Assembly (NCBI GenBank): GCA_943356435.1
Contig: CALREY010000003.1
Span: 1 to 64,000, forward strand
DNA from: Candidatus Altimarinota bacterium
GTDB lineage: Bacteria; Patescibacteriota; Gracilibacteria; BD1-5; UBA6164
DNA length: 64,000 nucleotides
Direction of reading: 5' to 3'
Shown here one piece after another: positions 844 to 64,000 of this stretch (positions are counted from its first letter, which is position 1; every line of letters begins with the position of its first letter). The notes under the pieces are model-generated. The model worked only from the letters and a program-made list of their open reading frames with translations, was not told the origin of the DNA and did no database searches. Made by a program: the position numbers and the translations under genes.

Positions 844-1812
844 TTATTCGCAAATAGTAGAACTATCAAAAGCTTTTCGACGTGCACATTCTTCTCTGAC
901 CAGTTTTTTTACATCAACTTTCAGAGTTTGTGCTCCATCAAGAGCCAAGTTTGCTTTGTTATCAGCGCTCAGAGCTGTAGTTGTTGCTAATTGTGCTTGA
1001 CTTCCAGCTTGTTCAGCTTTCTTTTCTGCACGTTTTGCAATTTCTTCAGCTCTTAAAGCTATTTCCTCAGCTCTTTTCGCAATTGTTAATGCTGAAGTAT
1101 CTGCCGCTTTAACCTGTTTAGCAGGTTTAATCCCAGTTTTAGCAACAACTTTTGCAGATTTATTTGCCTGAATAGCAACTGCTGCTTTTGCTTGTTTTTC
1201 TGGAGCTTTAGCAACTACTGCAGCTTTAGTAACAGTGACAACTGGTTTTATGGCTTGTACTTTTTCAAGTTTTACGACCTTTTTTTCCAGCTCTTTTTGA
1301 CCGACTTGACCAGCTTTGACTTCTTTGTCCAGATCTGTAAGCATACCACTTAGAGTAGTTTGGTTTTTGTTCAGGTCATTGATAGCACCATTAGCTTGGT
1401 CAAGGTCAGTTCGGATAACCGCCACTTGATCAGTATTCAGTTGTGTAGAACTTCTTACATCATTGATAGCTATCCTTACTGAAGATATCTTGTCATCGAC
1501 ACTATTTAGTTCTTTTTTCATAACACTAATAGCAATCAATGTAAGGATGATACTAAAAACAGCACCAATCAATATTACTCCAAGTCCATTTGTTTTGGTT
1601 TTTTCTTTTTCTCCGCCATTGTAACGATCGGGAGAATTTTTATTTTTTAACTCCTCCTCATCGTCCATGTCGATTTTTTTCAGATTTTCTTCGAGGACAT
1701 CAGGGCCCTCTGAAATCTGGTCCAAATCAAATTCATCATCCTTGCCTGTCTTTGCAACAACTTCGTCGCCAGCAACTACAGGTTTAACATCAGCATTTTT
1801 ATCAGTACTCAT
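844..1812 (-). CDS. Single-pass membrane protein with long Lys/Ala coiled coil (standard-code gene)
   Basis: The 322-aa protein has an acidic N-terminal cytoplasmic part, one membrane segment near residues 76-98 (GLGVILIGAVFSIILTLIAI), a heptad-rich region, and an Ala/Lys-rich stretch with repeats such as RAEEIALRAEEIAKRAEKKAEQ. The start is ATG at 1812 with AAGGA just upstream, and the gene ends in tandem TAA. I recognise no family. It contains no TGA codon, encodes Gly by GGN and uses CGT/CGA for Arg (ATC CGA ACT; GCA CGT CGA), unlike the UGA-Gly genes around it. It therefore belongs with the standard-code gene set. It may span or tether envelope layers, but that is inferred only from its shape. 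Confidence 0.85.
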   Translation of the reverse strand: MSTDKNADVKPVVAGDEVVAKTGKDDEFDLDQISEGPDVLEENLKKIDMDDEEELKNKNSPDRYNGGEKEKTKTNGLGVILIGAVFSIILTLIAISVMKKELNSVDDKISSVRIAINDVRSSTQLNTDQVAVIRTDLDQANGAINDLNKNQTTLSGMLTDLDKEVKAGQVGQKELEKKVVKLEKVQAIKPVVTVTKAAVVAKAPEKQAKAAVAIQANKSAKVVAKTGIKPAKQVKAADTSALTIAKRAEEIALRAEEIAKRAEKKAEQAGSQAQLATTTALSADNKANLALDGAQTLKVDVKKLVREECARRKAFDSSTICE

Positions 1813-36342: not shown

Positions 36343-36765
36343 TTATATAAAACTCAAATATACGAAAGCAAGCACTATAAGTATAGAGTCTGCTATTAAG
36401 GTGTATTTTTCTTTAAATATATTATTTAAAATCAAAGTCGTAGCATTTACTATTGCAAATACGCTCATGCAAAACAGAGATATTTCAAGTGTTTCATTTG
36501 CATCCTTATTAGATAGGATAAATATGAAGCTGATACTTGAGATCATGCTAATATTTACCAATCCATAAAATGTTAGGATGTTTTTCTTGTACATCGTCAC
36601 CATTACGAATAATAATATCTCTAACAAAAATATTTGCATAACAGCAATATTATTGACTTCAAAGTTTACGATGAATTTACAAACTGTAAAACTAAGAGAT
36701 ATACAGATTGAAGTCCATGCATAAAACATGAACATCCATGGTGAATCATTTCTTAAAATATTCAT
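36343..36765 (-). CDS. YiaA/YiaB-like small membrane protein
   Basis: This is a 140-aa protein with four predicted membrane helices (WMFMFYAWTSICISLSFTVC; IAVMQIFLLEILLFVMVTMY; LVNISMISSISFIFIL; SLFCMSVFAIVNATTLIL). The start at 36765 is preceded by AGAGGT. An upstream in-frame ATG (36825) would add 20 residues without an RBS. The first helix resembles YiaA/YiaB proteins. It has no TGA and only one Gly (GGA), so it cannot be assigned to either code group. YiaA/B genes often accompany envelope-stress clusters, which would fit the standard-code module at the right end. Confidence 0.55.
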   Translation of the reverse strand: MNILRNDSPWMFMFYAWTSICISLSFTVCKFIVNFEVNNIAVMQIFLLEILLFVMVTMYKKNILTFYGLVNISMISSISFIFILSNKDANETLEISLFCMSVFAIVNATTLILNNIFKEKYTLIADSILIVLAFVYLSFI

Positions 36766-51866: not shown

Positions 51867-52388
51867 GTGGAAATTCGACAGAGACTTTTAACATCAATTA
51901 TTTTGTTTTTTCTCATCATTATTCCTGATACATCATTTGCATTCGTGAATAAAAAAACGGATTTTATTTCTAGTATTTTACCTGAAATAGAAATGGCAAA
52001 AGATCGCGTAGGTGGAATTGCGGATAAGATTCCAGCTAGTCTTGTTTTAGCTCAGGCTATTCATGAATCTGGTTGGGGTACATCAAATTTCGCAAAAGAT
52101 AGGAAGAACTTGTTTGGTGTTAAAACAGTAAAGGTAATTCGTAAGAATAAATCAGTACGAAAAGTAATGGTTTACAAGTCATTTAATCGTGTAGGCGAAG
52201 GTATTCGTTATTATTTGAGTAACTACGCGTCGAATGATGATTACGAAGAGTTAAGGAGATATGTTTCTAAAGGCTCCGGTACTCATACTTTAATCAAGCA
52301 TCTGGGCAATTACGCGCAAGATCCAGAGTATGCAGGAAAACTGAAGAAAATCATAGACGACAATCATCTATTGAAGTTCGACAGTTGA
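51867..52388 (+). CDS. Secreted glucosaminidase-type peptidoglycan hydrolase (standard-code gene, TGA stop)
   Basis: This is a 173-aa protein with a signal peptide (LLTSIILFFLIIIPDTSFA) and a glucosaminidase/FlgJ-like domain: ASLVLAQAIHESGWGTSNFA, NLFGVKTVK, VGEGIRYYLSNYASNDDYEE and NYAQDPEYAGKLKKII. The catalytic Glu is in AIHESGWG. The start is GTG at 51867 with GGAGGA upstream. There is no internal TGA, CGN arginines occur (CGA, CGT, CGC), and the gene ends with TGA followed 5 nt later by a terminator. Read with the UGA-Gly code, the protein would gain 15 residues encoded by the terminator hairpin and stop at 52431. Confidence 0.85.
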   Translation: MEIRQRLLTSIILFFLIIIPDTSFAFVNKKTDFISSILPEIEMAKDRVGGIADKIPASLVLAQAIHESGWGTSNFAKDRKNLFGVKTVKVIRKNKSVRKVMVYKSFNRVGEGIRYYLSNYASNDDYEELRRYVSKGSGTHTLIKHLGNYAQDPEYAGKLKKIIDDNHLLKFDS

Positions 52389-52393
52389 TTTAA

Positions 52394-52424
52394 GGGAGTG
52401 AGGCAGAAATGTCTCACTCCTTTT
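52394..52424 (+). terminator. Terminator right after the TGA stop
   Basis: The hairpin GGGAGTGAGGC / GTCTCACTCC is followed by TTTT. It starts 5 nt after the TGA, which argues that this TGA was meant as a stop. Confidence 0.85.
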
Positions 52425-52439
52425 AACTTATAAATACTA

Positions 52440-52467
52440 TTGACAATTAATAAATATTATGTACAAT
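52440..52467 (+). promoter_or_regulatory. Promoter of the 290-aa gene
   Basis: TTGACA and TACAAT are separated by 16 bp with TATG before the -10 box. The leader then carries CTCATTAAAATTTTTCGAAT (52498-52517), a variant of the motif before the genes at 4798 and 53698. Confidence 0.8.
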
Positions 52468-52530
52468 ACAAATATCTAATCTATTTTTATATAGATGCTC
52501 ATTAAAATTTTTCGAATATAGGTAAACACA

Positions 52531-53403
52531 ATGAAACTATTTAAAGCATGTTTAACTATTCTATATATTTTATTTGTTGTAAATAATTACTTTGCTAATT
52601 TTTCTAGCACTAATGTTTCAAACAAATTGAATGTAGAATTGCCGGTTTCAAGTCAGATAAATATTGATTTGAATAACACTAACACTAATGTATTAATAGC
52701 AGATTTGTATAAAACATTGGATAATTTGAATAAACCTGCAAAAAATCTGAATGACAAACATATTTCAGTCAGTCAAAACGATGTGTATGAAAAGGTATGT
52801 GATTTTGTATTTATTACGATTAAAGGTTTTTTAGTTTTAGTCGTTGTATTGTTTATTTTATCAACGATTAGTAATCAAATAAAATATTTCAAAACAAAAT
52901 CAAAAGCAAAAAAAGCAAAAAAATATTGTTTGTATATGATTAACAGTTTCAATACTATTCATGATTTGTTATACAAAGACTTAAGTGTATTATCTGAGTC
53001 TTTCAAAAAAGAAAGATTGTTAAACGAATTATCAGGTGTGAAATGTGATTTCGATAAATATTTATCATTATATGAAAATATTCTACGAATAGGCAGAGAT
53101 CCTGAATACTCTAAATTGCTTTCTGGCGAATATGAAATTGTTATAGAAGATTTTACAAACATTTCAGATAATATTAGTTTTTTGATCAGTGTAATGAATG
53201 AAATACTTCAAGATTCAAAAAATCCTGATACTCAAGATTTGCATTATACTGGTAGAATTGGAGAAGTTGATACTAGCAATGTTTATGGATTAAATCATCT
53301 ACAAGTTAAATCAGTTCCCTATTCAGAAAGAGTTATTGAGAATTTGGGCTTGGATTTTGACTTTAGTGCTGTTAATTCAGTGTCTGATGCTGATCATTTA
53401 TAG
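52531..53403 (+). CDS. Membrane protein paralogous to the C-terminal half of the TPM protein (standard-code gene)
   Basis: This is a 290-aa protein with an N-terminal hydrophobic signal (LFKACLTILYILFVVNNYFA), a membrane helix near residues 91-113 (ITIKGFLVLVVVLFILSTIS), and a helical cytoplasmic part. The last part aligns in pattern with the protein encoded at 53698 (KAKKAKKYCLYMINSFNTIH vs. AKKRKAQ...TTAINSF; LSGEYEIVIEDF vs. LSADEYEQMSVHF; both end in ISVMNEI / FDIMNDI). No TPM domain is present. Gly are GGN, no TGA, stop TAG. Probably a partner or decoy form of the TPM protein. Confidence 0.75.
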   Translation: MKLFKACLTILYILFVVNNYFANFSSTNVSNKLNVELPVSSQINIDLNNTNTNVLIADLYKTLDNLNKPAKNLNDKHISVSQNDVYEKVCDFVFITIKGFLVLVVVLFILSTISNQIKYFKTKSKAKKAKKYCLYMINSFNTIHDLLYKDLSVLSESFKKERLLNELSGVKCDFDKYLSLYENILRIGRDPEYSKLLSGEYEIVIEDFTNISDNISFLISVMNEILQDSKNPDTQDLHYTGRIGEVDTSNVYGLNHLQVKSVPYSERVIENLGLDFDFSAVNSVSDADHL

Positions 53404-53492
53404 TATTTGTATGTCTTACCTAATTCGAGAAATTAATAAAAACAAATATAAAATGATGATTTTGAATCAAGTTTGTAGTATTACAAAATATT

Positions 53493-53588
53493 CAAATCCC
53501 CCTGTCCTACGGACATCCCCCTTAATAAGGGGGACTCAAAAAAAAAGGAGAAAATAAAGACACTGTAACTAGCTTACAGTGTCTTTTT
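53493..53588 (+). repeat. GC-rich repeat plus terminator cassette, copy 1
   Basis: CCCCCTGTCCTACGGACATC and CCCCCTTAATAAGGGGGACT are followed by AAAGGAGAAAATAAA and the terminator AAGACACTGTAA / TTACAGTGTCTTTTT. Copy 2 is at 57575-57669. Both copies lie at the ends of standard-code transcripts. Confidence 0.85.
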
Positions 53589-53605
53589 AATTGATAAAAA
53601 ATATA

Positions 53606-53633
53606 TTGACAAATATAATATTTTATGTATCAT
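53606..53633 (+). promoter_or_regulatory. Promoter of the TPM protein operon
   Basis: TTGACA and TATCAT are separated by 16 bp, with TATG just before the -10 box. The leader motif TTCATTAAAATTTTTTGAAA (53663-53682) lies 35 nt before the ATG. Confidence 0.75.
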
Positions 53634-53697
53634 CTCGCCAATCTGGTATTTTGCTGGAGAAGTTCATTAAAATTTTTTGAAATAGTGAGGAAAAACA

Positions 53698-55338
53698 ATG
53701 AGTAAAATCAAATATAGTTTTGCTTTACTGCTTTTTTTGTTTTTTAGTAATTCATTTGCTGCAAATTATTGCAGTGACTTGATTTATGACGAAACTGGAA
53801 GCATAGAATCAGCGAAATCTGCCCAGTTAGAAACTGCTGCAAATAAGCTGGTTCAGCAAGGTGTTGATGTAAAAGTCAGAATATTAAAAGACCTAAAAGG
53901 TTTTCAAAGTCTGGCTGCTCTAAAAAACAGTGCTCTGGAAAAATGCGGAAGCTGGAAAGGTGGTTCTTCAGGAATGAAAAACAACCTGATGGTTTTCTAT
54001 TATGTTCCAAGCGCTGGTAAAATGGCCTGGTTTTATGGTGATAGCTTAATAAGTAAGTTTGATCCGCTTGAAAAACAAGTTCAAAACGTAATGGCAGGAA
54101 TGTTTCGTGATAAATTGGTTGCTGATGGTTTTATTGCTGGTTTGAATTCTGCAGCAGATGTGAACTCTATTCCATTGGCTCAGCAGAATGCTAAACAATT
54201 AGTAATTAATCAAGCGGCTGATAATTCTCAAGCATGGAGTTTGTTGGGATGGATAGTTTCAATATTTGTTGCATTCATCCTATTTTGGGTTTTAACTATA
54301 GTTTTGTCTAATCGTGCTAAAAAACGTAAGGCACAAGTATCTGCTAAGACTCAAAGAGCTCGTTGCACAACGGCTATTAATTCTTTCGATGAAAAATATG
54401 CCATTTTGAAGGCCAAGTTGAATAAACTTGAGTCTGAGAAAAGAAAGGGTGATTTATTAGCTAGAATGCTAAAAGTAAGATCGAACTTCGATTTATACTC
54501 TGCAAATCTCGATTCGTTGATTCGTGGTGGAAATGATACTGATAATCCGAAACTTTCTGCTGATGAATATGAGCAGATGTCAGTTCATTTTTACGAACTT
54601 GCTCGGAAATTTGAAGCATTGTTCGATATTATGAATGACATCGAGCGTGATTCATTGAGAAATGAAGAAACTGAAGTAAAAATCGATACAGATTACACTG
54701 CTGGAAAATCTGGCTTTGCTGAACAAGTAAGTAAAGTAGAACCAGAAAAGCCAGTAGAAAATCGTCAAGGTCAACATGGCGGAACTTCTACGACTCAAAA
54801 TTATAGTAGTGGTCGAAATGATCCACCAGTTGTTCATCATACCACAGTAATTCATGAACGTGATAGTGGTAGTGATTTCACTACTGGTCTAGTTTTGGGT
54901 AGTATTTTGGCTGATGATGACCGTGAGGTACACCATCACCATCATTATGATGATAATGGTGATGCTAATCGTCAACCTGACTATGGACATCACTCAAACA
55001 ACGATGAGCAACAAAACACTAGTGGTGGAGGTGAAGAGATAGATCTCGGTGAATCTACTAAAGGTGGTGGTTCTGAAATTGATTTGGGTGTAAGTAGTAA
55101 TGGTGGCGGTTCTGAACGAAGTATTTTCGATGAACCAGAAGAAGATGATTCTAAAGGTGGTTCTGAATCGAGCATATTTAGTCGTGATCCAGAACCAGAA
55201 CCTGAACCAGAGCCTGAAGAAGCTCCTGATTTTGGTAGCTCATCTTCGAATGACGATGATGATGATTCGAAACCAGCTGATTCAAATTGTGATTGTGACT
55301 GTGATTGCGATTGTAATTGTGATTCCAGTAACGATTAA
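53698..55338 (+). CDS. TPM-domain membrane protein with Gly/Ser repeats and Cys-Asp tail (standard-code gene)
   Basis: This is a 546-aa protein. A signal peptide (SFALLLFLFFSNSFAANYC) precedes an extracytoplasmic TPM-type domain of about residues 25-165 (SIESAKSAQLETAANKLVQQ, KNNLMVFYYVPSAGKMAWFY). A membrane helix at about 183-205 (LLGWIVSIFVAFILFWVLTI) and a helical cytoplasmic domain shared with the 290-aa paralogue follow. The tail is long and disordered, with His/Asp runs, three GGGSE-type repeats (EEIDLGESTKGGGSEIDLG), EPEPEPEPE, and a final NCDCDCDCDCNCDSS run. TPM domains occur in envelope-stress proteins. The gene directly downstream encodes a radical SAM/SPASM enzyme, so the Cys-Asp tail is a candidate modification site. 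No TGA; stop TAA. Confidence 0.82.
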   Translation: MSKIKYSFALLLFLFFSNSFAANYCSDLIYDETGSIESAKSAQLETAANKLVQQGVDVKVRILKDLKGFQSLAALKNSALEKCGSWKGGSSGMKNNLMVFYYVPSAGKMAWFYGDSLISKFDPLEKQVQNVMAGMFRDKLVADGFIAGLNSAADVNSIPLAQQNAKQLVINQAADNSQAWSLLGWIVSIFVAFILFWVLTIVLSNRAKKRKAQVSAKTQRARCTTAINSFDEKYAILKAKLNKLESEKRKGDLLARMLKVRSNFDLYSANLDSLIRGGNDTDNPKLSADEYEQMSVHFYELARKFEALFDIMNDIERDSLRNEETEVKIDTDYTAGKSGFAEQVSKVEPEKPVENRQGQHGGTSTTQNYSSGRNDPPVVHHTTVIHERDSGSDFTTGLVLGSILADDDREVHHHHHYDDNGDANRQPDYGHHSNNDEQQNTSGGGEEIDLGESTKGGGSEIDLGVSSNGGGSERSIFDEPEEDDSKGGSESSIFSRDPEPEPEPEPEEAPDFGSSSSNDDDDDSKPADSNCDCDCDCDCNCDSSND

Positions 55339-55365
55339 TTGAAACAATAGTAGGGACGGACCTGT

Positions 55366-55470
55366 GTGTCCGTCCTGATACGAAACTGTGTCCGTCCTGA
55401 TACGAAACTGTGTCCGTCCTGATACAAAAAAAGTGTCCGTCCTGATACAAAAAAAGTGTCCGTCCTGATA
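55366..55470. repeat. Five tandem copies of a 22-23 bp unit
   Basis: GTGTCCGTCCTGATAC plus CGAAACT or AAAAAAA starts at 55366, 55388, 55410, 55433 and 55456. Just before it, GGACGGACC...GTCCGTCC (55354-55374) can form a hairpin. The array fills the gap between the TPM gene and the radical SAM gene. Confidence 0.85.
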
Positions 55471-55495
55471 ACTAGATAAATATTTTGGAGTAAAT

Positions 55496-56815
55496 GTGAA
55501 AGAGCGAATTGTAACAGAATTAGGAAATGGGTTTTATGTTGTAGTTAATCCGCATGCATCTAATCCAAGAGATTCATTGCAAGTTCTTAACCAATTACAA
55601 CTAAATGTTTTATCTAAACAATTAAATGGTGTTATAAATTTCGATACTCTGACAGAGAATGAAACTATAGCATTTTACAATCTAGAAAAACGAGGTGTAT
55701 TAAACGATAAAAATGTTGAAACAAACAAGTATCCAAAGACTCTTTCGATATGGCTTCATGTCACTGATCAATGCAATATGGCTTGTACTTACTGCCATGT
55801 AGTAAAAAAGGATCAGCACATGCATGATGCTATGTTGAATGATTTTGCTGATATGTTATTCAGGACAGCTCAAAATAAAGGACTTAGGGAAATAACTCTT
55901 CGTCTAGCAGGTGGAGAACCTGTTCTGAGATTTGCTTCTATTCATGATTGGATTGAAGAAACTAGGAATAGATTAGCGAGTCTGGATTGTAGCTTGAAAA
56001 TAGCTATGTTATCTGGATTAGCTAGCTTGCCAACTCAAGTAGTTGAGTTCGTAAAGAAGCCAAAAAATGGTATATCTGTTTCTATGGATGGGATCGGTGA
56101 AGTACAAGACAAATCTAGACCCTTAGTAAATGGTGAAGGTAGTTTCGAAAAAGTCAGAAAAAATATTGAGAAATTGAAAACAAATGGAGTAAATCCATAT
56201 ATTCTCACTGTTATATCTGATGAAAATATTGAAGGTCTGGTTGATTTCACTAAATGGTTGATTGACGAAAATCTAGGTTTTCGTTATTCTTTCCAAAAAG
56301 GTGGTGAGCTCAACAGATTGAGAGTTGCACAAGTGCTTATAGAGTGTTATGACTTGATTGAGTCTGCTGTTTTGTCTGGTGAATACACAGAGTTTCACAG
56401 ACATAGATTGGCTGATTTATCGACTTTTAATGCTCAAAAAACAGCTTGTGGTGCTGGTAGAAATACTTGTTCAGTTTATCTGGATGGAAATATTTACATG
56501 TGCCAAATGCAACATGGGAATACAAAACCACTCGGAAATGTAACTGATTCAAATGATTTATGTGAAATATTGGTAGATAGGTCAGAGCAGAATGATTTTC
56601 ATGATTTGGATGATACTTGTAAAAAGTGTCACTTGCGTGCTAATTGTTCTGGTGGATGTCCTATTGATAGACAAGGAGGACATAATCCAAATTGTAGTTT
56701 ATTTAAAGAGTTTTTACCAAGAATCCACAAGATTCATGGTTTAAAAAAATTGAAGAAAATTATTGGTGAAGATAAATTCTATCAAAAGTTTTATTCAAAC
56801 AACGCAGTAAATTGA
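55496..56815 (+). CDS. Radical SAM/SPASM peptide-modifying enzyme (standard-code gene, TGA stop)
   Basis: This is a 439-aa protein. The radical SAM cluster motif CNMACTYC lies at about residues 93-100, followed by LAGGEPVLRF (GGEP). The SPASM/twitch auxiliary cluster cysteines are in CGAGRNTCSVYLDGNIYMCQ and CKKCHLRANCSGGCP. This layout fits maturases that cross-link or otherwise modify ribosomal peptides or proteins. The start is GTG at 55496 with TTGGAG before it. The stop is TGA at 56813. Read as Gly, the frame continues for 11 codons without a stop straight into the ATG of the next gene, which would make a 687-aa fusion. Confidence 0.88.
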   Translation: MKERIVTELGNGFYVVVNPHASNPRDSLQVLNQLQLNVLSKQLNGVINFDTLTENETIAFYNLEKRGVLNDKNVETNKYPKTLSIWLHVTDQCNMACTYCHVVKKDQHMHDAMLNDFADMLFRTAQNKGLREITLRLAGGEPVLRFASIHDWIEETRNRLASLDCSLKIAMLSGLASLPTQVVEFVKKPKNGISVSMDGIGEVQDKSRPLVNGEGSFEKVRKNIEKLKTNGVNPYILTVISDENIEGLVDFTKWLIDENLGFRYSFQKGGELNRLRVAQVLIECYDLIESAVLSGEYTEFHRHRLADLSTFNAQKTACGAGRNTCSVYLDGNIYMCQMQHGNTKPLGNVTDSNDLCEILVDRSEQNDFHDLDDTCKKCHLRANCSGGCPIDRQGGHNPNCSLFKEFLPRIHKIHGLKKLKKIIGEDKFYQKFYSNNAVN

Positions 56816-56845
56816 AATTTCAACAACCTATATAGGAAAAACAAA

Positions 56846-57559
56846 ATGTCACAATCTATTTTAGATAAATTGCGCGTTATCTCTCTATCCAACTTGCATT
56901 CATTTTTGGATGCAGTAAAGGCAATGAACTCAATCGGTGAGCTCGAGCAATATATTCGAGATATTACTACCGTACGTAATAATCTAGATGATCAATCGGC
57001 ATCACTACGTGGTCGCAAGTCGTATCTGGAAACTCAAATCTCATCGGCTGAAGCAAACATCGCCGTTGCAAATGAAAACATCGATCTGGTACTCGGTGAC
57101 GATGATCCTGAAAACGATCACATCGCTGTTGGACTGCAGGTTGAGATGGATGCAGCCGAGAAAAAGATTGCTAGTGCTCAAGCTGAGCTCGATACAATCC
57201 TACCACAGGTTGCACAGTTCGACGAAGCAGTCATAAAACTGAACACCAAACTGCAAGAATCCAACATTAAGTTGGAAACTCTCAAATCACTTGAAGACAC
57301 AACCAATGCAAAAGAAAAGGCTGCAAAAGCTCTTTCTAGCATTGATTTCGGCGATGAGCCTGATACCAGCGGTGTTGAGTCAAGACTGCATCAAAAAGCA
57401 GCGGTTGCCGATAATGCTTTGCAACGTTCTCTTGGTGAAGTAACTGCAAGTATTGGTATTTCTTCGAGTCTAGATATGGCCAAGGTCAAAATCGAGCAAC
57501 GCAAAAAGCTCTTGCAACAGAAAAAACAAGGTGATGCCACAATTAATATAATCACCTAA
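56846..57559 (+). CDS. PspA/IM30-like coiled-coil protein (standard-code gene)
   Basis: This is a 237-aa protein, almost all helix, with the PspA/Vipp1 style: a short amphipathic start (ILDKLRVISLSNLHSFLDAV), then ELEQYIRDITTVRNNLDDQS and a long coiled coil (AEKKIASAQAELDTILPQVA). A more variable end contains ASIGISSSLDMAKVKIEQRK. PspA-type proteins polymerise on the inner membrane to repair it (family knowledge). It follows the radical SAM gene by 30 nt. CGN codons and GGN glycines only; stop TAA. The PspA assignment comes from pattern and context, so a different coiled-coil family is possible. Confidence 0.65.
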   Translation: MSQSILDKLRVISLSNLHSFLDAVKAMNSIGELEQYIRDITTVRNNLDDQSASLRGRKSYLETQISSAEANIAVANENIDLVLGDDDPENDHIAVGLQVEMDAAEKKIASAQAELDTILPQVAQFDEAVIKLNTKLQESNIKLETLKSLEDTTNAKEKAAKALSSIDFGDEPDTSGVESRLHQKAAVADNALQRSLGEVTASIGISSSLDMAKVKIEQRKKLLQQKKQGDATINIIT

Positions 57560-57574
57560 AAATCAAAACAAAAA

Positions 57575-57669
57575 CAAATCCCCCTGTCCTTCGGACATCC
57601 CCCTTATTAAGGGGGACTTAAAAAAAAAGGAGAAAATAAAGACACTGTAAGAAATTACAGTGTCTTTTT
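57575..57669 (+). repeat. GC-rich repeat plus terminator cassette, copy 2
   Basis: CCCCCTGTCCTTCGGACATC and CCCCCTTATTAAGGGGGACT, then AAAGGAGAAAATAAA and the terminator AAGACACTGTAA / TTACAGTGTCTTTTT. Nearly identical to 53493-53588. Confidence 0.85.
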
Positions 57670-57692
57670 ATGTGAAAAAATTATTAATATAA

Positions 57693-57720
57693 TTGACAAA
57701 ATAGATAAATATTTTATTAT
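57693..57720 (+). promoter_or_regulatory. Promoter of the 550-aa UGA-Gly gene
   Basis: TTGACA and TATTAT are separated by 16 bp, 30 nt before the GTG at 57751. Confidence 0.75.
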
Positions 57721-57750
57721 ATCTTTAATTTAATTTTAATATACTTTTTT

Positions 57751-59403
57751 GTGGATAAAATAGAGATAATTGAGGGTTTACAAGTTTTGAGTACTTATGA
57801 TAGAATGAGTATAGATGAAAAAGTTGTAGATGCAATGGAAGAAACTATTGATGATTATTATGATTTGATGAAAAATCCACAGGAAAATCAATTAGATATT
57901 TCACCTATAGATTATTATCAATGAGTAAATTGAGTATTGGTAAAAAAAGAATCAGAAAATCAATTCGTAAATCAATATAGATTTGAAACATATGACTATT
58001 TATGTAAAAAATATTCTAAAAAATGGATGGATAATTTATTTATGGTATTAAATACCTCAAATTCTGGTACTTATATAGATAAAATGTTAGAAATTATCTA
58101 TGATATATGAGACTTAGAAATGATCCATACATTAGTTTATATAGACTCTGAGCTTATCTGAAAATCACTTTTATACAAACATTATTTATCTAAAATACAA
58201 AATGATTTGGTATATAGTGAGTCAGCTAAAATATTATGATTATTTTTGTATGAAAAAGTAGAATATAGAAAATCATATGAGTTTATAAGTAAAATAAAAG
58301 AAACTAATTTAGTTATTTTAGATAAAGATTTATTATGTATTTATATCATATTAAATAAAGTAGTAAATAATGATGTATGATCTGATGAATTATTGGAACA
58401 TTTATCTAATATTATCAGTAAAGAATATGACAAATGAACAATTGATGATGAAAAATTCAAGGACGATCTATCTTTTATATTTTCTAATTATATAGATTTT
58501 TATCTGAAATTTGACAAAAAATATGATAATTTGATTCAATCTGCTGAACAATCTGTTATATTATGAGATGAAAATGCAAACTATCATTTGGTTTATTGAT
58601 ACATTCAAAAATGAGATTTATTAAATGCTACCCATGCATATAATAAATGGAGATGATACAGAAAGAATAAAAAATCATTTTTATGAAAGAATCCTATCAA
58701 TTCACTTGAAGAATTTTATTTGTATTGATGTGAAATCTGAATAATTTGAGCAAATGAATTATTAATCAATTTTTATAGAGAAGAATTTGAAAATAATTGA
58801 TATAATGATGACTATTTCGAGAAAATATTATTTTATACTATAGATTGAGAATATGAATTTTCTGAAAAAGATAATATATTTTTTGAATGTTTCAATAAAT
58901 ATGTAGATAGTTTGGATAATGACAAGAAACAATTTTGAATGATTGATATGTTGTTTACTAAATATATAGATACATGATTTGCTCTATATCTAGATAAAAT
59001 TTTATCTATATGTTCTAAAATACTTAGAGGATGATATGCTTGAAATCCAGAATTGAAGAAAAAAGTATCTGCATGGATAGAAAAAATGGCAGTTATAGAC
59101 GCAAGTCGTGATAATCAAGAATTATCAGAAACATTAAATGAAGAATATTTGAAGAATAAAATATCATTATTAAACGATGTAGATTATTTGGATGCTAGGT
59201 TTGATGAATTGTTATTAATTATGTGTGTACATAATCTACAATATGTAAATACATTTAGTAAAATACTAGATATACCTACTACACTGGCTTCAATTTTTGA
59301 TTATTTTGGAATGTACAATGAAACTAATCTTGCTCTTCAATTCGACGATTTTTTTCAAAAAAATAATACACCAATTACTAACGTAAAAAAAGCTCAAAAC
59401 TAA
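57751..59403 (+). CDS. Hypothetical helical protein (UGA-Gly gene embedded in the standard-code block)
   Basis: This is a 550-aa protein with TGA read as Gly (for example GGYAGNPELKKK and YQGVNGVLVKK, where several Gly are TGA). It looks all-helical and acidic (LEMIHTLVYIDSELIGKSLL, NYHLVYGYIQKGDLLNATHA), with possible TPR-like or Sel1-like helix pairs. No family recognised. The start is GTG at 57751 after its own promoter. It is the only UGA-Gly gene between the standard-code genes ending at 57559 and those ending at 59532, which proves the block is not a single contiguous foreign insert. Its function may be tied to the module. Confidence 0.75.
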
Positions 59404-59424
59404 TTTTAGTTTTGAGCTTTTTGA
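59390..59424 (+). terminator. Terminator of the 550-aa gene
   Basis: The hairpin AAAGCTCAAAACTAA / TTAGTTTTGAGCTTTTT overlaps the stop codon. Confidence 0.8.
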
Positions 59425-59432
59425 AAATAAAA

Positions 59433-59458
59433 AAACTTCTAGGTTTAACCTAGAAGTC
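59433..59458 (-). terminator. Terminator of the TelA-ABC operon
   Basis: The palindrome AACTTCTAGGTT / AACCTAGAAGT is followed on the minus strand by TTTTTTATTTT, downstream of the ATPase gene ending at 59532. Confidence 0.75.
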
Positions 59459-59531
59459 TTAACCTCCTTTTGATTGTATTAATTTGTTTTGGTTTTTCAA
59501 TACTATTTTGTATTTGTTTTTCATTTTGTTT

Positions 59532-60467
59532 TTACATTTTGTTTTTGTTTTCCTCTTCTGTTAACGTTTGAAAGGCATTTTCGCTATTTAGCTTAAATGT
59601 CTTCACATGTTGTTTGTAATCAGGATCCAATCCAGCTTTGTCAGCTTCGCTTAAAAGTGGTTTTATGAGTGGAATATATCCATCATAGCCCAATGTGCGT
59701 CTTTGAGGTAAATATTGCTCAAATGACACATCATGTACTATTTTTGAACCTCTTTTAAAGTCATCACCACGATCATCGGTATAATATTGTGACAAGACCA
59801 CTAGACGCGACCCAAGAAATCCAGCTTCGTGAATATCATGAGTGACAAATAGTATAGTCATACCAAATTCTTCCCATAATTCTAGCAAATACAACTGTGT
59901 ATCTCTTCGAATGTTTTGGTCCAATGCACCGAATGGTTCATCCATGAGTAAAATATCATGTTTTGCCATAAGTGCTTGAACTATTGCTACTCTTTGTTGC
60001 ATACCACCTGATAATTCATGTGGTTTTTTATGTGCTGCTTCAATGAGTCTGACTCTTTCTAGCAACTCCATTGCTTCATCTATATATCTTCCCTTTTCTT
60101 GTTTCCACCAGTTTCTATGAAGTGCTATTTTCCAGAGCGGTGTTGACCAAACTTTGGATAAAATAACATTTTCTAAAACTGTTTTGTGCGGTAAAAGAGA
60201 GTATTTTTGATAAACTATTCCACGATGTTTGTTAGGAAAATCAGCATCTTTACTATCAATTAGTACTTCACCGGTTTTTGAAACGAATTCTTGACCGACA
60301 ATCAGACGAAATAGTGTACTTTTACCAGATCCAGATGGACCTAGTAGAGTCACGAGTTCACCTTTTTCAATTGATAGATCGAGATTATCCAATATGATTT
60401 GCTTATTGTAACCATGCATTACATCTTGAATATGTAGTTTGTTAGTTCGGAGTTCTTGTATATCCAT
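59532..60467 (-). CDS. ABC transporter ATP-binding protein, NitT/TauT type (standard-code gene)
   Basis: This is a 311-aa protein from the ATG at 60467, which sits 5 nt after the permease stop; an upstream in-frame ATG at 60548 would overlap the permease gene. Motifs are LVTLLGPSGSGKSTLFRLIV (Walker A), RGIVYQKYSLLPHKTVLENV (Q-loop), HELSGGMQQRVAIVQALM (signature), and ILLMDEPFGALDQNIRRDTQ (Walker B/D-loop). The codon for the conserved R in QNIRRD is CGA, so CGA is read as Arg here. It powers the permease encoded directly upstream. No TGA; stop TAA. Confidence 0.9.
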   Translation of the reverse strand: MDIQELRTNKLHIQDVMHGYNKQIILDNLDLSIEKGELVTLLGPSGSGKSTLFRLIVGQEFVSKTGEVLIDSKDADFPNKHRGIVYQKYSLLPHKTVLENVILSKVWSTPLWKIALHRNWWKQEKGRYIDEAMELLERVRLIEAAHKKPHELSGGMQQRVAIVQALMAKHDILLMDEPFGALDQNIRRDTQLYLLELWEEFGMTILFVTHDIHEAGFLGSRLVVLSQYYTDDRGDDFKRGSKIVHDVSFEQYLPQRRTLGYDGYIPLIKPLLSEADKAGLDPDYKQHVKTFKLNSENAFQTLTEEENKNKM

Positions 60468-60472
60468 TTGAT

Positions 60473-61294
60473 TTACTCTTCGTGTTTGATTTTTTCGTAA
60501 ATTAATTTCAGACCATAGTCCATCAAATATGCTAGATAAGCTGTCCAAATACCGTACGGAATAATGATATCCATATTCATTTGTCTTTTGTTTATAGCTA
60601 CTTGATGTCCTAGACCAGTTTCAGATGTAGAAAATTCTGCCATGATAAGAAATATCCAAGCTGCACCTAGACTAAAACGTATAGCATTTATCCATTTCGG
60701 AAGTAGAAGTGGTATAACCATTCGATGAACGATACCAGCATCTGACAAACCTAGTGTTGCTGCTTTGACTGCATAAGCTTTTCTTATATTTTCTGCATTT
60801 AGTAACATATCTCTAGCAATAAAAAATACGGTACCCAATGCAATTAGTGAAACTTTACCCACATCTTCAAATCCAACCACATATGAAATAATAGGTTGAA
60901 AAATAGGTATAACGATAACAGAAAGTACAATGGTAAAAGTGCCGAACATTTGTCTCAAACCTGGATATACACCCATGTATAAGCCCCATATTAAGCCTAT
61001 TACTACACTAATACTTACTCCTGAAACCAACCTAACCAGACTGTCATATGTATCTACCCAGAAAGTGTATTGTTCTGAGTATTGATCTTTGGTGAATGCG
61101 AGATTCTTCATTGATTCATACATTTGACTGAAGTATGGAAACAATCGATCGTCAGGATTTATTTGATGCCTAGAATATGCAAAATACATATATAATACCA
61201 AGCAAAAAATAAATGGCCATAAATTGCACAACACTGCAAACCATCTTTTTTGAGATGGGTCTGCATGAATTCCTAAGAAAAGTGGTTTTTTCAT
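60473..61294 (-). CDS. ABC transporter permease, NitT/TauT type (standard-code gene)
   Basis: This is a 273-aa protein with six membrane helices (FIFCLVLYMYFAYSR; VSGVSISVVIGLIWGLYMGV; FTIVLSVIVIPIFQPIISYV; and others). The cytoplasmic EAA-like loop is VKAATLGLSDAGIVHRMVIP. It belongs to the SsuC/TauC type. It lies 5 nt upstream of the ATPase gene and 55 nt downstream of the binding protein gene, completing an importer. No TGA; stop TAA. Confidence 0.88.
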   Translation of the reverse strand: MKKPLFLGIHADPSQKRWFAVLCNLWPFIFCLVLYMYFAYSRHQINPDDRLFPYFSQMYESMKNLAFTKDQYSEQYTFWVDTYDSLVRLVSGVSISVVIGLIWGLYMGVYPGLRQMFGTFTIVLSVIVIPIFQPIISYVVGFEDVGKVSLIALGTVFFIARDMLLNAENIRKAYAVKAATLGLSDAGIVHRMVIPLLLPKWINAIRFSLGAAWIFLIMAEFSTSETGLGHQVAINKRQMNMDIIIPYGIWTAYLAYLMDYGLKLIYEKIKHEE

Positions 61295-61349
61295 ATTTCA
61301 CCTATCTTGCAAATGTACTCATCCCTGAGCACATTTACGATTAAAAAAT

Positions 61350-62372
61350 TTACTTGATTAATCCTTCGTCAAGCATTTTTTGTGCATAACTAGCATCAAA
61401 AGTCAGCGAAACATTATTGGCATTGCCGATAACAGTTCCATTTGGAAATTTGACACCTATTTTGTCAACATCACTTGCAGTCAGACCGGTAGAGAACAAC
61501 CAATTGTGAACACGACCACTCATGTTTTGAATGAATGCATCAGAGCTCATAAAAGCAATTGCATCTTTTGGGTTATCCAATCTGAATGTTGTTGATAACT
61601 GATCTTTGTAGCTATCAAGTGAATCGTTTGGCACAGCAGCGATATTTGTTAGTACTTGATCGTTGTTCATAGAAGCAACGACTTCATACCAGATCCCAAC
61701 CAATGCTTTAATTGCATTTTCCGGCATTTTTGCATCGACAGCTAAGCCGTCAACGATATAACCAGGAAATTGAGCTGAGCTACACAGACTAGTGACATTT
61801 TTCACTTGGTTAACAAATGGTTTCCAAGTAACACCTGAAGATTTTTTAGCACCTTCAAATGCTAGAACAATGTCACTTTCTGCCGCTTGGATAGCTCCAA
61901 CAGAACGAATATCAACACTAATATCACCCAAACAAGCAAACAGAAGCATATCGGATACCGAATCGTTATCGTATCTGAATTTCACTTTTTTCTTCACGCA
62001 TTCTTGGAGCGTTGTGCACTCGTTTGAAAATGCGACATCATTACCGTTTGAAAAGTCTCCAGCAATTGGAAAAATGACTTTTTTCGATGTAGCAACTGAC
62101 CAAGCGTCACCGTTGGTAATAGTTACTGCATCGATTTTTCCATTACGAAATAGGTCGAGAGAATCAGTGTACGACGAAGCTTGAACGATGTCGATTTTGA
62201 CCCCCATCTTTTCTTCCCATTTCTTCACAATACCTTCTCTTTTTGCGTATTCCCACTGATACCAGTAGGCATAGTATGACCAGCCGACTTTGATAGTAGG
62301 AACTTCCGCTTTCGCGATTGCTGTAGAAAACAGAGCAATAAGTGTAAACAAACTAATAATAGTTTTTTTCAT
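61350..62372 (-). CDS. Periplasmic binding protein of the ABC importer (urea-carboxylase-region-like family)
   Basis: This is a 340-aa protein from the ATG at 62372, with the signal peptide KKTIISLFTLIALFSTAIAKA and RBS AGAGG. The mature part starts EVPTIKVGWSYYAYWYQWEY, then VQASSYTDSLDLFRNGKIDA and VTITNGDAWSV. This matches the NMT1/TauA-like binding proteins, closest in my judgement to the group described as associated with urea carboxylase (TIGR03427-like). The true ligand is unknown. No TGA; CGA and CGT arginines; stop TAA. Confidence 0.82.
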   Translation of the reverse strand: MKKTIISLFTLIALFSTAIAKAEVPTIKVGWSYYAYWYQWEYAKREGIVKKWEEKMGVKIDIVQASSYTDSLDLFRNGKIDAVTITNGDAWSVATSKKVIFPIAGDFSNGNDVAFSNECTTLQECVKKKVKFRYDNDSVSDMLLFACLGDISVDIRSVGAIQAAESDIVLAFEGAKKSSGVTWKPFVNQVKNVTSLCSSAQFPGYIVDGLAVDAKMPENAIKALVGIWYEVVASMNNDQVLTNIAAVPNDSLDSYKDQLSTTFRLDNPKDAIAFMSSDAFIQNMSGRVHNWLFSTGLTASDVDKIGVKFPNGTVIGNANNVSLTFDASYAQKMLDEGLIK

Positions 62373-62400
62373 TAGTATATACCTCTTTTGGATTGAATGA

Positions 62401-63615
62401 TTAGATTTTTTCAGCAGCCGCATCCATATTTGCTTTTTTGATGGATGCGTCAACTTGATTTTTCAGTTTAAGCAACAGGTCTTCGGCGGCACGACGATTT
62501 TCAGCTGATTGTTTTTCGTTTTCACGATCAGTTTCAATAGCTGTAATAGTAGATTCCACCAAAGACTCAATTTCTTGAGCTCTTTTCAAAGCAAGACCTT
62601 GACTTTCTTTTGCCACATTTACGACTTCATCGACGATTTCGGTAGTGTGCTTGTTCAGTCTAGATTCCACTTCATCGAGAGCTTGACGGTCTTTTTGAGC
62701 TTCTTTCGTTTCGTACAGAGCAATCAGCTCGACTATTGAGGCTTTGAGTTTCGGTATTACGAATAGAATACCTCTGACAATGCCTTCGATTTCGATTTTG
62801 ATTGCGTCCTGTGTTCTACGAACACGAGGAATAGTGACAGATGAAGCTTCCACATAGGCAAGTTTCAGCTGTATAAATCTCGTGTCAAAACTTGCTATTT
62901 GTTGGTAAATGTCTCTTACATCTTGTAGTTTGAGTGTATCGTTACTTTGTAATGCAGCCTTGGCAAGTTCATCGTACTCAGCTTTGGCTTTTTTCAGAAT
63001 GTCTTCACCGGCTGCAATGTAGATGCGGATACCGTTGATTTGCTCGATTGTTGCATTGCGCAATTTATCGAGTTTATCACTTTCATTGGTCAGTGTTTGG
63101 ATGCGATTGTTGTATTTCTCAACCAGCTCATCAAACTTTTGAACAATTGTATCTTGACTTTGCATCAGGTAATTTACATAGTCAGCGATACCACCGAGTG
63201 CTTCGATAATACCAGAAAACAACTTTGTAAGTTTCCCTTGACCATGTATAATTTGCTCTTTGGTTTGATCCAATTTCAGTAAATCTATGCCGTCATTGAG
63301 TTCGATTGCCAATTGACCAGCCAGACCAGCGTCTTTTGTCTTAATACCAGCTAAGAGTTGATCCAAAATGCTATTGAATGCATTTTGTGGTGCAGCACCG
63401 TAATACAAGTTTGCAGCAGTGTTCATGATGTCATGACCAGCTACAATTTTCTCGACTTCAGCCAAATCAGAGGGTGACATCTCATCGCGATTGATGAGTT
63501 CATCGTCACCTTTGGTTTCGATTACCATCGGTAAATTTGCTGTACCACCAGTAGCAAATACATTAGCGTCAGCGATAGTGGCAGATTCAGTAGTTGATTG
63601 TTGTTGTTCACTCAT
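62401..63615 (-). CDS. TelA/KlaA-like toxic anion resistance protein (standard-code gene)
   Basis: This is a 404-aa protein, nearly all helical, of typical TelA length. Typical TelA segments are DLLKLDQTKEQIIHGQGKLT, LYYGAAPQNAFNSILDQLLA (N-terminal), FIQLKLAYVEASSVTIPRVR, RTQDAIKIEIEGIVRGILFV and EIVDEVVNVAKESQGLALKR. TelA proteins are linked with tellurite and other envelope stress, and often sit beside PspA or TPM-type genes. It is transcribed first of the visible run: TelA, binding protein, permease, ATPase. Start ATG at 63615 after AAGGGGC. No TGA; stop TAA. Confidence 0.88.
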   Translation of the reverse strand: MSEQQQSTTESATIADANVFATGGTANLPMVIETKGDDELINRDEMSPSDLAEVEKIVAGHDIMNTAANLYYGAAPQNAFNSILDQLLAGIKTKDAGLAGQLAIELNDGIDLLKLDQTKEQIIHGQGKLTKLFSGIIEALGGIADYVNYLMQSQDTIVQKFDELVEKYNNRIQTLTNESDKLDKLRNATIEQINGIRIYIAAGEDILKKAKAEYDELAKAALQSNDTLKLQDVRDIYQQIASFDTRFIQLKLAYVEASSVTIPRVRRTQDAIKIEIEGIVRGILFVIPKLKASIVELIALYETKEAQKDRQALDEVESRLNKHTTEIVDEVVNVAKESQGLALKRAQEIESLVESTITAIETDRENEKQSAENRRAAEDLLLKLKNQVDASIKKANMDAAAEKI

Positions 63616-63616
63616 T

Positions 63617-64000
63617 TTAAGCCCCTTTTTCAGGTAAATAAAGATTGGTTTTGTTTGCTAAATCAGATGCTTGATTTCTCAAGTTTTCCAGAGCTAGTGC
63701 TTTGGACATATCTGAAATATTAGCTACTTTTACAGTTAATTCAGCCAGACCTGTGAGGGTCTTTTCTACTTCGTTTATTAGTATTTCAACTTCATTTTCT
63801 TGTGTTTCCTTTAAATTTATTTGGTTTAAAAATGGTTGTTTTTCAGCATCATTATCAGCTGAATTGATAGATCTATTTAAACTATCTACATCAATCGTTT
63901 GAACAGAGCGGTACTTCGATAGAGCTTCCATTAGCTTGTTTAGTACTGCTAAATTTATTTGTTCAGCAATACTTAAATACTCGCCATGGCTAATACTGTT
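63617..64000 (-). CDS. Helical protein upstream of TelA, 5' end beyond the window (standard-code gene)
   Basis: The frame is open from the right edge of the window, with SHGEYLSIAEQINLAVLNKL before the first visible Met at 63931. The C-terminal part reads LAELTVKVANISDMSKALAL and LANKTNLYLPEKGA and is mostly helical. No family recognised, although in many bacteria an XpaC-like gene stands before telA and this could be such a gene. It ends 1 nt before the telA ATG, so it is translationally linked. Partial. Confidence 0.65.
   Translation of the reverse strand, partial: NSISHGEYLSIAEQINLAVLNKLMEALSKYRSVQTIDVDSLNRSINSADNDAEKQPFLNQINLKETQENEVEILINEVEKTLTGLAELTVKVANISDMSKALALENLRNQASDLANKTNLYLPEKGA

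Follow-up and report, generated by a model that had tools for sequence, protein, structure and literature searches.

Genes and features of the locus

The stretch of DNA analysed here, which we call the window, comprises positions 1 to 64,000 of contig CALREY010000003.1 of a Candidatus Altimarinota bacterium, a Gracilibacterium in which UGA is decoded as glycine and makes up around 70% of the glycine codons (1.526 of the 1.550 Mb of the genome were examined, and the assembly is about 90% complete). Most of the window is closed when it is read in the standard code, and long genes open once UGA is taken as a sense codon. At its right end starts a gene cluster without internal UGA (51867-57559 and 59532-70442), whose genes carry Shine-Dalgarno sites and in some cases stop at UGA. 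These genes belong to a set of around 44 genes, scattered over the genome, which we call standard-type, as opposed to the recoded genes (UGA=Gly) that form the majority. An earlier note on this DNA had described the cluster as a possible envelope-stress module. We confirm the genes of the cluster, but the chief finding is the code style in which they are written rather than envelope stress. The features are listed below with their window positions and strand.

844-1812, minus strand: membrane-anchored coiled coil, standard-type; no UGA, Shine-Dalgarno site aagga, TTGACA promoter, two CGA codons
4798-7512, plus strand: membrane protein of 904 amino acids, standard-type; no UGA, Shine-Dalgarno site aggag, TTGACT-TATAAT promoter, six CGA codons
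36343-36765, minus strand: small membrane protein, probably standard-type; no UGA, AGAGG site, TTGACA promoter, only one glycine
51867-52388, plus strand: glucosaminidase (80.5 bits, cut-off 30.2); UGA stop, then a terminator-like hairpin
52531-53403, plus strand: paralog (25% identity) of the middle and C-terminal part of the TPM-like protein of the next line; only in the source genome
53698-55338, plus strand: secreted TPM-like membrane protein; 41 GGN codons, no UGA
55496-56815, plus strand: radical SAM/SPASM enzyme; UGA stop; best NCBIfam model a PapB-type maturase, below cut-off
56846-57559, plus strand: PspA/IM30-like protein (PF04012, 41.6 bits, cut-off 33.9)
57709-59403, plus strand: recoded gene with 21 in-frame UGA codons, at the equivalent place in the congener G002
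59532-60548, minus strand: ATPase of a NitT/TauT-like ABC importer
60473-61294, minus strand: ABC permease; its G002 ortholog has a UGA stop three codons ahead of the ATPase start
61350-62369, minus strand: substrate-binding protein (SBP), TIGR03427-like, below cut-off
62401-63615, minus strand: TelA family protein (PF05816, 76.3 bits, cut-off 30, positions 54-393)
63617-64000, minus strand: hypothetical membrane protein of 268 amino acids, cut by the window end

Beyond the window the cluster extends to around 70.4 kb and its operon to contig position 69108, with genes for the complete hypothetical protein (268 amino acids), an OmpA/SBP protein (543), a VWA protein (242) and an SBP/OmpA-like protein (601); a putative channel gene lies at 69159 and ends at 70442.

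The glucosaminidase, PspA and TelA proteins scored above their Pfam cut-offs, and both the radical SAM/SPASM gene and the importer (ATPase, permease and SBP) lie where the earlier note had placed them. Its two TPM-related proteins stand only in part, as the TPM domain (PF04536) of 53698-55338 reaches 17.4 bits, below the cut-off of 22.1 for Pfam membership, and 52531-53403 gave no TPM match and is related to it as a paralog. The genes at 844 and 4798 do share the style of the cluster, as had been proposed. The gene at 36343 shows the style too, but the name 'YiaA-like' given to it could not be verified because it has no Pfam match.

Regarding the stops, reading the terminal UGA of the radical SAM gene as glycine would fuse the enzyme in frame to PspA over 247 further codons, with the predicted junction peptide FYSNNAVNGNFNNLYR. 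The copy of the glucosaminidase in a congener stops at UGA as well, and its tail beyond the UGA is unrelated. The recoded gene in the middle of the cluster is an internal control against misassembly.

Signals of the standard-type genes

Our catalogue of 44 genes includes UGA-free genes with at least six GGN codons, ribosomal and surface-layer-like genes being excluded. With no internal UGA in the whole set, these genes do not behave as members of code 25. A Shine-Dalgarno site at the first start was found in 35 of the 44 and in only 22 of 960 recoded genes (p around 3e-41), and when downstream starts were allowed the count from the catalogue was 41. CGA codons were 54-fold enriched (36 of 15,099 codons in standard-type genes versus 17 of 387,019 in recoded genes), and in 11 of 15 cases the CGA codon was aligned to arginine in the ortholog. 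TTGAC-type promoters preceded 39% of the standard-type and 7% of the recoded genes (1.4% after shuffling), and both the GC content and that of third codon positions (GC3) were elevated in the standard-type genes. Six of the 44 terminate at UGA, among them the genes for the radical SAM enzyme, the glucosaminidase, ThrC and an antiporter; this stop is kept in two orthologs with unrelated tails beyond it. As for the decoding of UGA, a tRNA with the anticodon TCA is present in the genome. No release factor 2 (RF2) was found there: only one gene matched the prfB family, and this gene is rich in UGA, scores below the cut-off and is presumably RF1. The tRNA set, which is incomplete, contained neither the anticodon TCG nor ACG.

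The UGA fraction per gene is sharply bimodal, and most of the genes that fall between the two modes encode ribosomal proteins or elongation factors. L7/L12 and L10 use no UGA for glycine, EF-Tu uses it at 5 of 40 positions and EF-G at 9 of 57. Highly expressed recoded genes are thus under selection against UGA, which means that such selection can operate within this cell. However, these UGA-poor genes have neither Shine-Dalgarno sites nor CGA codons and their GC3 is around 0.1, unlike the standard-type set. We therefore treat expression-driven avoidance of UGA as a distinct phenomenon, and high expression was rejected as the cause of the absence of UGA from the standard-type genes. The genes of the source genome with little or no UGA for glycine and without a Shine-Dalgarno site include C1:19661, C1:20399, C5:41412, C5:64266 and C17:3533, which are ribosomal proteins, EF-Tu, EF-G and a surface-layer-like protein.

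A CAAAAACAAAAT-like leader precedes the Shine-Dalgarno site, with AAAACAAA in 18% of the standard-type and 2% of the recoded genes; it lies 5' of C1:20880, C2:5763, C4:649, C4:122404, C7:20324, C7:36707, C13:18587 and others. Such a common leader suggests one regulon.

The 16S gene of the source genus is absent from the assembly, and the evidence on the 16S tail comes from related genera. Their 3' ends (L137-L141) read GGACTATCTCCTTA in four genera of the family and GGACTATCTCTTTA in one genus of another family, both in place of GGATCACCTCCTTA, that is, with an altered anti-Shine-Dalgarno sequence. We considered that the parasite ribosome might be unable to use the standard-type sites and dropped this idea because the relatives keep UCUCC. 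Among the sites, GGAGG and GGAGA occurred 8 and 14 times, counts too few to tell which anti-Shine-Dalgarno sequence they match.

Exclusion of UGA over long divergence

In the module orthologs of the source genome (G000) and its congener G002 there were 174 conserved glycine sites, 85 of them with differing GGN codons and none with an internal UGA, whereas in the recoded flanking genes of the same two genomes 60 of the 130 codons (46%) that partnered a GGN codon were UGA. Four-fold sites differed in 51% of cases in the module versus 43% in the recoded flanks. According to a two-state estimate, around 28% of the ancestral GGN sites are expected to turn into UGA per lineage. The chance of finding no UGA among the 348 glycine codons of the module would then be around 10^-50, and still around 10^-10 at one-fifth of that rate.

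The same pattern was seen for PyrD, PyrF and IlvC in G000, G002 and the further congener G003, where 175 pairwise comparisons gave 79 different codons and no UGA. The GC3 of the PyrD gene of G003 is fully ameliorated (0.12), yet this gene contains 33 GGN codons, no UGA and a Shine-Dalgarno site. Homologs of PyrF, PyrD and IlvC that contain UGA do exist in other genera, and most PyrF homologs from the other genera of the family have it. At the PyrE/F locus the standard-type genes diverge in the order of their recoded neighbour (0.90/0.67/0.67 vs 0.75/0.59/0.59 and 0.85/0.56/0.55). Two congeners have the standard-type orthologs at equivalent loci, and these co-diverge with the recoded neighbours wherever this was checked, so the little divergence that a recent arrival would leave was found neither in the operon nor in PyrE/F, PyrD or IlvC. 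Because these loci are shared with congeners while UGA moved freely in the neighbouring genes, it is strongly supported that the long-term exclusion of UGA from the standard-type genes is selected.

In another genus of the family, the single-contig genome G021 has, within 280 kb, around nine genes that lack UGA and carry a Shine-Dalgarno site, and sampled stretches of G010, G013, G033 and G053 contained none. Therefore, the trait seems to be lineage-specific. The UGA-free loci of G021 (L128, L130, L131, L199, L201 and L203-L205) are scattered, and their sequences are unlike those of the set in the source genome.

What the standard-type genes encode

PyrC, ThrC, PyrF and Asd (the latter with a subfamily model) scored above curated cut-offs, and PyrD, PyrE, PurM, PurC, DapD and DapB are homologs below the equivalog cut-offs. 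Pfam matches were obtained for IlvC, which is present in G000 and G003, a GGDEF-EAL protein, a Na/H exchanger, a Bax1-I protein, a CDP-alcohol phosphatidyltransferase, a subtilase and a PEP-CTERM protein. With code 25 as the translation table, queries from E. coli K-12 gave no match for CarA, CarB, PyrB, ThrB, IlvD, DapA, PurD, PurL or PurH, and for this reason the biosynthetic enzymes of the set look like isolated pathway steps. In the same way, neither Omp85 nor an exosortase was found in the genome, though OmpA-domain and PEP-CTERM products are encoded. Many standard-type genes correspond to isolated biosynthetic steps or to proteins of a diderm envelope. A VirD4/TraG-like homolog of the coupling protein of type IV secretion systems (PF02534, above cut-off) is encoded at C5:31489 in the organism's own code.

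The TelA operon in other genomes

An operon on Vibrio plasmids has the same families in the same order as that of the source genome (SBP/OmpA, VWA, SBP/OmpA, hypothetical protein, TelA, 'urea' SBP and permease, plus an ABC ATPase), including the two SBP/OmpA-like proteins. The two differ in that identities are 25-43%, the ATPase is at the other end in Vibrio, and the counterpart described here sits in a recoded genome. In G002 the order of the operon is equivalent, and synteny covers the locus, its recoded flanks and also the recoded gene in the middle; the equivalent locus of a congener is JAQTXG010000014.1, 'Candidatus Gracilibacteria bacterium STC_129'. The TelA ortholog of G002 is at 69%, and neither TelA nor the operon was found in any other of the relatives searched. 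The closest standard-code matches were 37% for the SBP (named genomes), 25% for TelA (plasmids) and 58% for IlvC (plasmids). No plasmid relatives were found for the TPM and PspA proteins, and the sphingomonad loci contain only SBP, permease and ATPase, with no TelA.

Recurrence elsewhere, which the earlier note had made the test of its module, was seen for the TelA-centred operon (Vibrio plasmids and the congener) and not for the TPM/radical SAM/PspA part. Actually, 52531-57559 is absent from the G002 locus and from the Vibrio loci and does not belong to the recurring operon, and a search seeded with TPM found it in the source genome only, among 49 relatives. The literature searched on TelA, PspA and TPM neighbourhoods gave no relevant report.

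Regarding other features of the cluster, a near-identical double hairpin (CCCCCT...AGGGGG, then ACACTGTAA...TTACAGTGT and a T-run) lies at 53498-53582 and at 57580-57664, each time 3' of a standard-type gene, and a 22-23-bp unit (GTCCGTCCTGATAC...) occurs four times in tandem at 55368-55449, just 5' of the radical SAM gene. We rejected CCCCCTGTCC together with the hairpin repeats as a signal of a mobile cassette, as CCCCCTGTCC has only three copies and one of them is beside a recoded gene. No RNA-family match was found within the window.

Proposed translation in a host and the alternatives

We propose, with a probability of around 0.5, that the standard-type genes are retained for translation in a standard-code bacterial host. 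The chromosome contains two gene languages, namely that of the majority, with UGA as glycine, no Shine-Dalgarno sites and avoidance of CGA, and the standard language of around 44 genes, in which UGA is absent from the reading frame but may serve as the stop, and which has Shine-Dalgarno sites, CGA and TTGAC-type promoters. The selection would arise from translation by the standard-code machinery in the host's cytoplasm, to which DNA (or RNA) might be delivered, perhaps via a type IV secretion system. A host could read the standard-type genes, whereas the remaining genes of the parasite would be closed to it, since translation of these would end at UGA and they have no ribosome-binding sites. 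By completing or boosting pathways of the host (pyrimidines, purines, amino acids), the products might nourish the parasite, while the proteins of the TelA/OmpA/VWA/ABC operon might act in the host's diderm envelope. More tentatively, the parasite may keep these dispersed genes in the language of its host (code, ribosome-binding sites and promoters) and deliver them, so that enzymes and envelope proteins made by the host nourish or stabilise the association and the difference in code sorts expression per cell.

Several points weigh against this proposal. Both the host and the transfer are putative, and the standard-type genes are scattered, on no single transferable segment. Moreover, relaxases are rare in Patescibacteria, where type IV secretion systems are widespread, and those who surveyed these systems prefer roles outside conjugation, for example import (PMC12102498). 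The 16S tails of related genera (GGACTATCTCCTTA) retain UCUCC and could pair with many of the Shine-Dalgarno sites. One pseudouridine-synthase-like gene, C22:6584-7159, combines a Shine-Dalgarno site and one CGA codon with three in-frame UGA codons and is the only apparent intermediate. Finally, IlvI-, IlvE-, IlvA-, PurF- and PurN-like pathway neighbours exist in the organism's own code, and divergent enzymes can escape E. coli queries in a genome that is around 90% complete.

The main rival is a second lexicon used in the own cell, that is, genes acquired long ago which act inside the Gracilibacterium, UGA being excluded since they are expressed when the decoding of UGA as glycine is inefficient or error-prone, and Shine-Dalgarno initiation serving as a separate control. 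The UGA-poor highly expressed genes, the UCUCC of the family tails, which the own ribosomes might use, and the UGA-decoding tRNA all agree with it. Nevertheless, we think it unlikely, because those expressed genes lack the Shine-Dalgarno sites, CGA codons and raised GC3 of the standard-type set, a terminal UGA without RF2 would give readthrough (247 codons in the radical SAM case), and the enzymes are isolated steps while the OmpA and PEP-CTERM products have no partners in this cell. Still less probable is that the genes look foreign because they are repeatedly refreshed from the DNA of a standard-code host by natural uptake and homologous replacement: the patchy presence of the TelA operon and of IlvC and the gain of genes by transfer in Patescibacteria (PMC12455944) would fit, whereas the divergence at the PyrE/F locus follows the order of the recoded neighbour and no close standard-code relative was found for the SBP (among named genomes) or for TelA and IlvC (on plasmids).

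Recent horizontal transfer, with too little time to gain UGA, appears very improbable. Recently transferred genes in recoded genomes likewise lack the reassigned codon and have a foreign composition, and the raised GC and GC3 and the patchy presence are what they would show; the TPM/radical SAM/PspA part (52531-57559), found only in the source genome, could actually be recent. However, the standard-type genes are syntenic, long diverged and still without UGA, as seen in the synonymous sites of the operon (four-fold 0.51 vs 0.43) and of PyrD, PyrF and IlvC and in the ameliorated PyrD of G003, and there are almost no intermediates among the genes with Shine-Dalgarno sites. For the syntenic genes this explanation is contradicted unless the copies were inserted independently at one site. 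We give hardly any weight to an assembly or binning artefact that mixed in a standard-code organism. It is true that these are draft genomes and that contig C12 of G002 (L190), of 11 kb and with an O-antigen-like cluster, is wholly standard-code in look and probably a contaminant, for which reason it was left out. Nevertheless, standard-type and recoded genes alternate within contigs with equal junctions in two or three diverged species, and the single-contig G021 of another genus has such genes as well.

Related systems and meaning

The nearest precedent is given by the code-11-compatible phages of Gracilibacteria and Absconditabacteria, whose genes are free of in-frame UGA and rely on non-UGA stops, the proposed gain being readability in standard-code bacteria; the prophages of these bacteria all use UGA as sense (PMC10746230). 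As in the standard-type set, UGA-free genes are here tied to UGA=Gly hosts. However, the standard-type genes are chromosomal, cellular in function and carry Shine-Dalgarno sites, and they keep UGA stops (six of the 44), which separates them from these phages. No relative of TelA or PyrD was found in viral contigs, nor of PyrD in phage records, and a viral origin was accordingly rejected.

Agrobacterium T-DNA offers an analogy in how it works, as its genes are carried by one organism and written for expression in another, although the present case would be bacterium-to-bacterium, with scattered genes and no border-flanked segment. Phage auxiliary metabolic genes likewise supply single steps of the nucleotide and amino-acid pathways of a host and travel with a parasite, but the parasite here is a cell that has ribosomes of its own and another genetic code.

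In the literature searched, which included few subscription journals and preprints, we found no description of a set of standard-code genes on the chromosomes of these bacteria, nor, should the genes act in their own cell, of a second lexicon with separate initiation signals in one cell. If the proposal of translation in a host is true, selection can act on a gene for being translated in a cell other than that of its owner. A criterion taken from sequence alone (no UGA, a Shine-Dalgarno site and an isolated pathway step) would then list candidate genes for expression by uncultured epibionts inside their hosts, and the exploitation of hosts by Gracilibacteria would become testable with existing metaproteomes.

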